Of a stretch of DNA of 54,544 nucleotides, positions 50,982-53,134 are shown piece by piece. Positions within the stretch are counted from its first letter, which is position 1, and each line of letters opens with the position of its first letter. Source of the DNA: Candidatus Binatia bacterium. Its GTDB lineage: Bacteria > Desulfobacterota > Binatia > UBA12015. A program made the translations under genes and the position numbers. The stretch lies in the NCBI GenBank assembly GCA_019749875.1, contig JAIEPK010000021.1, forward strand, positions 1 to 54,544, in the 5' to 3' direction. Below the pieces are notes generated by a model. It worked only from the letters and a program-made list of their open reading frames with translations. It was not told the origin of the DNA and made no database searches.

Positions 50982-51043
50982 GCCCGCACGACGACAGCAC
51001 GACGGGCGCGCCGGCCGCGCCACCGGGACGCTCGCTCCGCCTG

Positions 51044-51883
51044 GTGGTCGCCGACGTGACGCTGCACGTGGTCGATTACGGCGCGGCGAGCGAGGCCGCG
51101 GCTGCGCGCCCGCTCTTGCTGCTCCACGGCGGCATGGGCCATTCGCGCTGGTGGGACCTCGTCGCGCCTCGGCTGACGGGGGTCGCGCATCCGTTCGCCT
51201 TCGATCGGCGCGGACACGGCGACAGCGACTGGGCGGATCCCGAGCGCTACGGCTGGGAGCTCGACCTGCGCGACGTCGAGGAGGTCGCGCGTCGCCTGAG
51301 CCCGCTCCCGTGGAGCATCGCGGGGCACTCGCAGGGTGGACTCCTCGCCGTCCATCTGGCGAGGCGCGGCAACATCCCGCTGCGCGATCTGATCCTGCTC
51401 GACGTGCCGCTCGAGCCGCAGAGCCCGAGCCTGCAGCGCGCCGGGCAGGCGTTCCGGCGCATGCCGCAGATCCGCTATCCATCGCTCGAGGCGGCCCTGC
51501 AACGCTTTCAGCCGTTCCCGCCGGTGCACCACGTGCCGCCCGACGTGCTCGAGTATCTCGGGCGCCACAGCTTCAAGCCGGCGGACGACGACAGCGGCGA
51601 GCTGGTGTCGAAGTTCCACTGGAAGTCGTATCAGCGCGACCGCAGCCGCGAGGCCAACCCGCTTCAGGACCACGACGCACGGCTGCGCGCGATCGACGTG
51701 CCGGTGCTGAGCGTTCGGGGCGGCGACTCGACGATCCTGTCGCGCGAGGACCAGGCGGAGCTGCTGCGTCGGCTGCGCGACGGCCGCGGTGTCGAGGTGG
51801 CGCGCGCGACGCACAGTCTGCACGCCGAGCAGCCGGCGCTGGTCGCGGCCGCGATGCGCGAGTTCCTGTCGCGGCATGCTTGA
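51044..51883 (+). CDS. Alpha/beta hydrolase
   Basis: A 279-residue hydrolase. The oxyanion strand LLLLHGGMGHSRWWD is followed by FAFDRRGHGDSDWAD, the nucleophile elbow WSIAGHSQGGLLAVHLA, an acid in VLSVRGGDSTILSRED and the catalytic histidine in ARATHSLHAEQP, so the triad is complete. The substrate is unknown. No ATG is in frame near the N terminus. GTG 51044 (or GTG 51056) is the best start; the open frame extends up to the rhodanese stop, and a CTG at 50978 overlapping it is a less likely option. Confidence 0.85.
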   Translation: MVADVTLHVVDYGAASEAAAARPLLLLHGGMGHSRWWDLVAPRLTGVAHPFAFDRRGHGDSDWADPERYGWELDLRDVEEVARRLSPLPWSIAGHSQGGLLAVHLARRGNIPLRDLILLDVPLEPQSPSLQRAGQAFRRMPQIRYPSLEAALQRFQPFPPVHHVPPDVLEYLGRHSFKPADDDSGELVSKFHWKSYQRDRSREANPLQDHDARLRAIDVPVLSVRGGDSTILSREDQAELLRRLRDGRGVEVARATHSLHAEQPALVAAAMREFLSRHA

Positions 51884-51940: not shown

Positions 51941-52108
51941 CTAGTGTTCCGTCTCTCAAAGATCCGCGACAGTCAGGCGTCGAGGCGCCCCGACGGCAAG
52001 GCGCGCGACCGCGGCGTAGCCACGTCCTACGCCGCAGGGAGTGCAACGCAGCCGGCGGGGATGCATCGGCGGCTGGATGTTGCGGAGATGTGGGAGACGG
52101 GACACTAG
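51941..52108. mobile_element. Miniature inverted-repeat element flanked by CTAG (IS630-type MITE candidate)
   Basis: A 168-bp element with terminal inverted repeats of about 36 bp (27 of 36 positions match). Both ends read CTAGTGTyCCGTCTCyCA inward, so CTAG stands at each edge, matching the CTAG/TA target preference of IS630/Tc1-mariner elements. The interior has no gene but folds into hairpins, for example GCGGCGTAG with CTACGCCGC. The right end, AGGAG at 52107-52111, forms the ribosome binding site of the kinase gene at 52121. Confidence 0.75.
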
Positions 52109-52120
52109 GAGCACGACGTC

Positions 52121-53134
52121 ATGGAGCTGCACGAACGCCTCGCGCGCTACCTGAGCGGTCGCCTGGGAACGGAAGTCCGCGTCAGCGGCTTCGCGCGCAA
52201 GAGCGGCGGCGCGTCACGCGAGACCTATCTCTTCGACGCCGCCTGGGCCGAGAACGGCGGTACCGTGCAGCGCGGCTACGTGCTGCGCCGCGATCCGGTC
52301 GCGAGCGTGCTCGAGTCCGATCGTACGCTCGAAGTGAACGTCCTGCGCGCGGCGCACGCGCTCGGGCTGCCGACGCCGAAGGTCGCGTTCCAGGAGCTCA
52401 CCGGCGACGCGCTCGAGCGTCCGTTCTGCATCCTGGAGCGCTTGCCCGGCACGCCGACGCCGCCGACGTTCCCCGCTGCGTACCCGGTCGAGATGCGCGA
52501 GCGTACCGCCGAGGACTTCGTGTCGATCCTGGCGCGCATCCATGCCGCCGACTGGCGCAGCCAGGCTCTCGACGTCCTCGACGAGCCGGGCCCCGGCACC
52601 AGCGCCGCGCGCCGCGCGATCGACCTCTGGCGGCGCATCTACGAGCAGGATCGCATCGAGGCGCACCCCATCCTCGAGCGCGGCTTCGGCTGGCTCGAGC
52701 GCAACGTCCCGTCGACCGACGTCGTCACGCTCGTGCACGGCGACTACCGCAGCGGCAACTATCTGCACGACGAGAGCGGACGGATCACCGCGATGCTCGA
52801 CTGGGAGATGGCGCACTTCGGCGATCCGCACGAGGACCTCGGCTGGGCGGCGATGCCGTACTGGTCGTGCGAGGGCCGCGCGGGCGGCCTCGAGCACGAG
52901 GACGCGATGATCGCACGCTACGAGCGCGCCACCGGCACCGTGGTCGATCGCGCCCGCGTCCACTTCTACAAGGTGCTCGGCACCGTCAAGATGGCCGCGA
53001 TCTCGCTGACCGGCGTCAAGAGCTTCTGTGCCGCGCGCAGTGCGGAGCCGACGCTGGCGGTCGTCGGCATCGTCCTCGGGCGCCTGAGCGTGGAGCTCGT
53101 GCAGCTCCTCGGCCTCGACGCCGGAAACGGGTGA
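52121..53134 (+). CDS. APH-fold phosphotransferase (LvaA/ACAD10-kinase-like)
   Basis: A 337-residue kinase-like protein of the aminoglycoside-phosphotransferase fold: GGASRETYLFDAAW in the N lobe, RPFCILERLPGTP at the hinge, the catalytic loop LVHGDYRSGNYLHDESGRIT and the metal site MLDWEMAHFGDPHEDLGW. In this subfamily (with ACAD10/ACAD11 and LvaA of the levulinate pathway) the substrate is a 4-hydroxyacyl-CoA, which is phosphorylated before elimination; assigning that here is inference from the neighbours. ATG 52121 uses a ribosome binding site that overlaps the miniature element. The DUF6285-like gene follows after 4 bp. Confidence 0.85.
   Translation: MELHERLARYLSGRLGTEVRVSGFARKSGGASRETYLFDAAWAENGGTVQRGYVLRRDPVASVLESDRTLEVNVLRAAHALGLPTPKVAFQELTGDALERPFCILERLPGTPTPPTFPAAYPVEMRERTAEDFVSILARIHAADWRSQALDVLDEPGPGTSAARRAIDLWRRIYEQDRIEAHPILERGFGWLERNVPSTDVVTLVHGDYRSGNYLHDESGRITAMLDWEMAHFGDPHEDLGWAAMPYWSCEGRAGGLEHEDAMIARYERATGTVVDRARVHFYKVLGTVKMAAISLTGVKSFCAARSAEPTLAVVGIVLGRLSVELVQLLGLDAGNG

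Follow-up and report, generated by a model that had tools for sequence, protein, structure and literature searches.

An element between a hydrolase gene and a kinase-like gene

The window (the whole stretch of DNA analysed, 54 544 nucleotides of a contig from Candidatus Binatia bacterium, JAIEPK010000021.1) contains, between two genes on the plus strand, a 168-bp element that we assign to the IS630-type miniature inverted-repeat elements (MITEs) on the basis of its copies, its whole-length fold and its empty site. It extends from CTAG to CTAG at positions 51941..52108 and lies on the plus strand, as defined by its core. The upstream neighbour encodes an alpha/beta hydrolase (51002..51883; PF12697, E 4.8e-19; start codon unassigned) and the downstream neighbour a kinase-like protein of the APH phosphotransferase family (52121..53134; PF01636, E 2e-31); both genes are neighbours only. 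The left terminal inverted repeat is CTAGTGTTCCGTCTC (51941..51955, plus strand) and the right one is CTAGTGTCCCGTCTC (52094..52108, minus strand), and the TA at 51942-51943 and the TA at 52106-52107 are the two copies of an apparent target duplication. A first-pass annotation made from the sequence alone had described 168 bp with inverted repeats and CTAG at both edges, which are indeed present at 51941..52108, and both ends match its end pattern exactly. It had put the inverted repeats at about 36 bp; the repeats are real but extend further, as the entire element forms one imperfect hairpin (RNA MFE -116.9 kcal/mol, where shuffled sequences give -70.7 +/- 4.6; z = -10). The longest ORF overlapping the element has 68 aa and enters from outside.

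We searched one genome of the same genus (G001), in which the hydrolase/kinase gene pair is present, the flanks of the site are 79-83% identical and the element is absent. Its empty site reads GTGCTAGGACCGGGGCGTCATGGAGCTG, and the filled site reads GTGCTAG-element-CTAGGAGCACGACGTCATGGAGCTG; the single CTAG of the empty site, the kind of site in relatives that the first-pass annotation had suggested inspecting, corresponds to CTAG-element-CTAG in the filled site. One CTAG turned into two fits insertion at TA within CTAG (a duplication of TA and a duplication of CTAG look the same in this comparison). Other relatives likewise have no insertion at this locus, which indicates that the insertion belongs to the window's own lineage.

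The same annotation held that the right edge of the element forms the AGGAG in front of the kinase gene, and that the element thereby supplies a ribosome binding site and was domesticated in the leader of the kinase operon. An AGGAG is present (52107..52111, plus strand), but only its first two letters lie within the edge CTAG, and both are already found in the G001 empty site, where the motif is AGGAC. The empty site (GTGCTAGGACC..ATG, reading CTAGGA) has AGGA at the same distance from the kinase ATG as the filled site. AGGA thus predates the insertion and the element did not bring the ribosome binding site; on the evidence of the empty site we rejected the supply of this site, and domestication, which has nothing in its favour, as well. 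In a broader form, with the element co-opted as the leader of the kinase gene (as ribosome binding site or regulator), the idea could appeal to an element that stops 12 bp before the ATG and to an AGGAG that spans its edge. We consider it very improbable, given that AGGA and its spacing are already in the empty site, that no relative with this locus has kept the insertion, that copies elsewhere are at unrelated places, and that a search of the 168 bp for a sigma-70-like promoter or a terminator found none. In four relatives (L061, L063, L065 and L066) TANCGT or a near form occurs 7-9 bases before the kinase ATG, with the CTAG target inside the motif; TANCGT upstream of this ATG in several relatives may be the -10 box of a leaderless gene.

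Copies and IS630-type ends

Nine copies of the element (94-99% identity) are found in its own genome (G000; 7.78 Mb in 680 contigs), five of full length and four cut by contig ends, with the other copies at unrelated places. The end pattern, with at most one mismatch, has 16 matches in this genome versus one for the reversed control, so the repeat is not a product of chance; the first-pass annotation had proposed a count of this kind. CTAG borders every copy in this genome, with one CGAG edge as the sole exception. On contig C301, two MITE ends have one CTAG in common.

The same genome has two complete IS630-type elements, whose ends (CTAGTRCACCGCCG) are related to, but unlike, those of the 168-bp element. 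No autonomous partner with the same ends was found in G000, where these two are the only IS630-type genes, and a copy may be missed in such a fragmented assembly; a transposase partner acting in trans need not be in the genome today. Same or near-same ends are found in relatives. In a genome of the same family (G010) and two of the same class (G088 and G090), CTAGTGTCCCGTCTC ends adjoin N- and C-terminal stretches of IS630-like transposases that are cut by contig ends (stretches recognised by eye; a 57-aa piece has no Pfam hit). Another genome of the class (G120) has a complete element of 1149 bp with ends CTAGTGTCCCGTCCC, encoding a 374-aa transposase (DDE_3, E 1.5e-23). Among the assembled transposases, none that is complete has exactly the end CTAGTGTYCCGTCTC; contig ends truncate the copies that match, and the complete element has ends CTAGTGTCCCGTCCC. 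The search for an IS630 transposase with the same ends, as the first-pass annotation had advised, thus gave the same or near-same ends in the family and the class but not in the element's own genome.

Because of its copies, its insertion in CTAG and the matching ends of IS630-type transposases in relatives, the 168-bp element is best read as an IS630-type MITE, presumably mobilised in trans, to judge from sequence comparison. The non-autonomous IS630-type element proposed earlier therefore holds, with the CTAG flanks and the apparent TA duplication in its favour as well. Origin by internal deletion of an IS630 copy was considered and rejected: autonomous copies share little with the element beyond the ends and carry no core.

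A hairpin core with changing ends

A covariance model (R1) matches the hairpin core and the inner part of the outer stem at 51982..52066 on the plus strand (63 bits, E 1.9e-16; the element is itself among the 68 sequences from which R1 was built). Within it, pattern match, fold and alignment place the core pattern CAAGGCGCG..GGAG.GCAACGCAG at 51997..52051 (plus strand), which includes an internal loop AA/GCA (51998-51999 with 52048-52050), an internal loop GC/AA (52001-52002 with 52045-52046) and a tandem GA/GA (52007-52008 with 52039-52040). These three features are recurrent among cores, the letters of the AA/GCA and GC/AA loops being fixed by the search pattern, so that these two loops had no room to vary. 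The search pattern put no constraint on the left spacer and left GA, which fit the right side in 104 out of 130 unique cores, versus a mean of 38.8 and a maximum of 57 in 1000 shuffles. Across 68 diverse cores, hardly any of the outer stem's sequence is conserved, yet it remains paired (86.6% of cells), and the stem covariation is 0.484, compared with 0.152 in shuffles and 0.08-0.16 when slid. No Rfam covariance model matched the 168-bp element, and a search of 16 other core loci returned only one tRNA, located elsewhere.

The core is not tied to one kind of end. A second MITE family in G000 has about 80% identity in the middle and ends CTSAGAGTYTGTGAATCAATCCCC, and a third family, found by the covariance model, is 157 bp long with ends CTAGTGCGCCGTCGTCGAGATCGC; one core thus occurs with three end types in a single genome. 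The third-family MITE of 157 bp abuts one of the two autonomous IS630 copies, which has the same end sequence; at this place (L043:780-2067, contig C662) the two are arranged head to tail and have one CTAG between them. The covariance model finds no core in the autonomous copies. For the second family, which may be of IS5 type, the targets read CTSAG on both sides, and no transposase with its ends GAGTCTGTGAATCAATC was found in six genomes. In one element with second-type ends (L101, G010 contig C40), the core-bearing sequence holds a short tandem expansion of GGCGCCTTGCAGGCGG.

At least 117 stretches match the core pattern CAAGGCGCGN{24,44}GGAGN{1,2}GCAACGCAG, and among the matches listed the core occurs in about 12 phyla. 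These records come from Gemmatimonadota, Planctomycetota, Acidobacteria, Nitrospirae, Eisenbacteria, Omnitrophota, Elusimicrobia, Latescibacterota and Binatia, and also from an actinobacterial MAG and from beta-, gamma- and deltaproteobacteria, including Myxococcota and Desulfuromonadales. Most of the genomes compared are MAGs. One core-bearing MAG record (L114, CAMATZ010000049.1) is titled Bordetella parapertussis; for an environmental MAG, this species assignment may be incorrect. 148 genomes of the same class gave about 40 matches to the core pattern and none to the reversed pattern, and the covariance model has matches in 37 of these genomes, with at least 30 copies in several. 19 genomes reached via other loci have 1-27 core copies each and no control matches. 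BLAST gave no match to the element in plasmids or phages.

Three genomes were also taken by end sequence alone, and contain 19 distinct miniature elements with both ends 120-260 bp apart. The covariance model detects the core in 14 of the 19, and in all 10 of those that are 162-164 bp long; its association with these elements is therefore not only a matter of ascertainment. Other miniature elements have no core or a different one. Shorter siblings of core-bearing MITEs (L056 in G043; L326 and L331 in G010) consist of ends and outer arms with no core. A 166-bp element with IS630-type ends CTAGTGTCCTGTCTC (L301:1350-1515) has a different core (CATTCTGAGCCGTAGGCGAAGAATCTC) and no R1 match, at the same length. 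In an acidobacterial genome (G156), L364 and L376 are core-less or enlarged MITEs with long GC-rich hairpins (CCCCAACGCGGCAGCCGCGTTGGGG), and the end of these MITEs has more than 100 matches in that genome.

Element length and strand polarity

The TA-to-TA length is 163-167 bp in 35 out of 56 core-bearing elements with clear TA ends, which represent more than a dozen end types and several phyla, and in 42 of the 56, from many groups, a C precedes the left TA. Nine elements, mostly of Burkholderiales type, form a second length group of 230-231 bp. When arms were joined across different elements as a control, five such pairs were obtained versus 56. The Burkholderiales-type elements of 230-231 bp that contain the core (e.g. 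L145, L149, L189 and L216) are thus longer, and they are also less symmetric and include a second small hairpin (TCACCCAATGGGTGA).

We aligned the two arms of the elements and scored all mismatches alike. Over all elements, G.T mismatches outnumber A.C (196 vs 25) and A.G outnumber C.T (192 vs 18). The excess persists with one representative for each of 51 arm clusters (G.T 69 vs A.C 13): 28 clusters lean to G.T and three to A.C (p = 5e-6), and for A.G versus C.T the clusters divide 35 to 2. More than 60 bp from the core, outside most elements, the two are balanced (G.T 18 vs A.C 17). A G.T mismatch on one strand is an A.C mismatch on the other, so an excess of G.T means that the ability to fold is maintained on one defined strand; no such bias would be left by a palindrome that decays as double-stranded DNA. 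As an evolutionary signature read from sequences, this points to a core that is preserved in folded, single-stranded form and always with the same polarity. Isolated G.T (28) and isolated G.A (25) are about equally frequent when each cluster is represented once.

In tandem contexts, the two orientations of the core with respect to the adjacent genes are about equally common (28 vs 24), by a rough gene finder that misassigned the hydrolase beside the 168-bp element. We rejected transcript-level tolerance in operons on this count, a weak test. Among the matches listed, a hand count showed no replication-strand bias in G126 (about 12 vs about 12). On contig C1 of G127, 11 of the 13 core copies among the matches listed are on the minus strand.

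What the core may do

Taken as a whole, the locus probably holds a non-autonomous MITE of IS630/Tc1 type, inserted at a CTAG between the hydrolase gene and the kinase gene. On comparative evidence, its ends would be recognised in trans by an IS630-type transposase. Its middle is formed by a hairpin core of single polarity that is widely shared: MITEs with other ends and a similar total length have it in about a dozen phyla. As to what the core does, we propose tentatively that its strand folds as single-stranded DNA, for example at the replication fork or during DNA uptake, and that a widely conserved host factor recognises the folded core or the core draws the two ends together, with the effect that the element would be copied or transposed more often. 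The core would then act in cis for the element itself and not for the kinase gene.

It is also conceivable, if in our view somewhat less likely, that the core acts as RNA: read-through transcripts or transcripts of its own would fold and bind a protein (for instance RNase III, the ribosome or a transposase), protecting or regulating the element or the transcript. The excess of G.T is what RNA wobble pairs would be expected to leave, the stems covary, transcribed Correia and ERIC MITEs are known RNase targets (PMC10969869), and at 51941-52108 the core strand is the strand transcribed with the flanking genes. Against this stand the even orientation in tandem contexts (rough as that count is), the lack of any detected sigma-70-like promoter in the element and of any matching Rfam family, and two features that RNA wobble alone does not explain, i.e. 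isolated G.A about as frequent as G.T and a constrained end-to-end length. Orientation, promoter, mismatch frequencies and length lead us to favour single-stranded DNA over RNA, but they are weak discriminators. Inheritance with no function, in which one ancient MITE of about 165 bp is ancestral to all core-bearing elements, the ends changed along with their transposases, and core and length remain as relics, would account for a length and layout that are alike across families; most ends start with CTAG, and a single transposase superfamily may account for them all. We find this decidedly improbable, since the arms change completely across about a dozen phyla, and a sequence of no function would not have retained a core, covarying stems and a one-strand mismatch bias over such a span. 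A selfish module not described so far, in which a structured, fixed-polarity single-strand hairpin sits on different transposon ends at near-constant element length across about a dozen bacterial phyla and influences, in cis, how any carrier spreads, seems to us close to an even prospect.

Relation to known elements and significance

REP/RAYT palindromes are multicopy imperfect hairpins with a defined strand, and have these properties in common with the core-bearing elements; to our knowledge, they have neither transposon-type ends nor a TA duplication. Among MITEs, the 168-bp element is itself a further member of the known IS630-type group. A close parallel is RUP (repeat unit of pneumococcus), an intergenic MITE, about 100 bp long, that inserts at TA and has ends matching those of the IS630-family element IS630-Spn1 (PMC2229807). 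Both are MITEs with IS630-type ends at TA, but RUP is found in one species, and no core common to MITEs of other ends is described in that paper. IS630 of Shigella sonnei and ISY100 insert at TA, IS630 preferentially in CTAG (PMC2170065); these are autonomous elements with a transposase gene, which the 168-bp element does not have, and the IS630 copies examined in this analysis have no core. Correia/NEMIS (from Neisseria) and ERIC (from enterobacteria) are intergenic MITEs with transcripts that fold and can be RNase targets, and PMC10969869 reports no core across different ends for them. The Chunjie MITE of Geobacter uraniireducens, with copies of 178-235 bp (PMC10969869), is comparable to our element by its description.

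What is apparently new is a strand-polar core that crosses phyla while the ends change: it has no Rfam match, and the literature covered, in which few subscription journals are included, gave no account of a core common to different ends, the sequence strings leading only to unrelated papers. A prior description of a cross-phylum core may nevertheless exist.

MITEs are usually viewed as decayed insertion sequences with an arbitrary interior, whereas here the interior is conserved and the ends change. About a dozen phyla have one and the same strand-polar core, in elements whose length is nearly fixed, and some genomes contain 30 copies or more. If the fold is functional, it would be a general means, acting in cis, by which non-autonomous DNA spreads, and this role is directly testable, since a matching transposase of the IS630 type is available. 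A core with no function would still serve as a marker for annotating many intergenic repeats that are currently unannotated.
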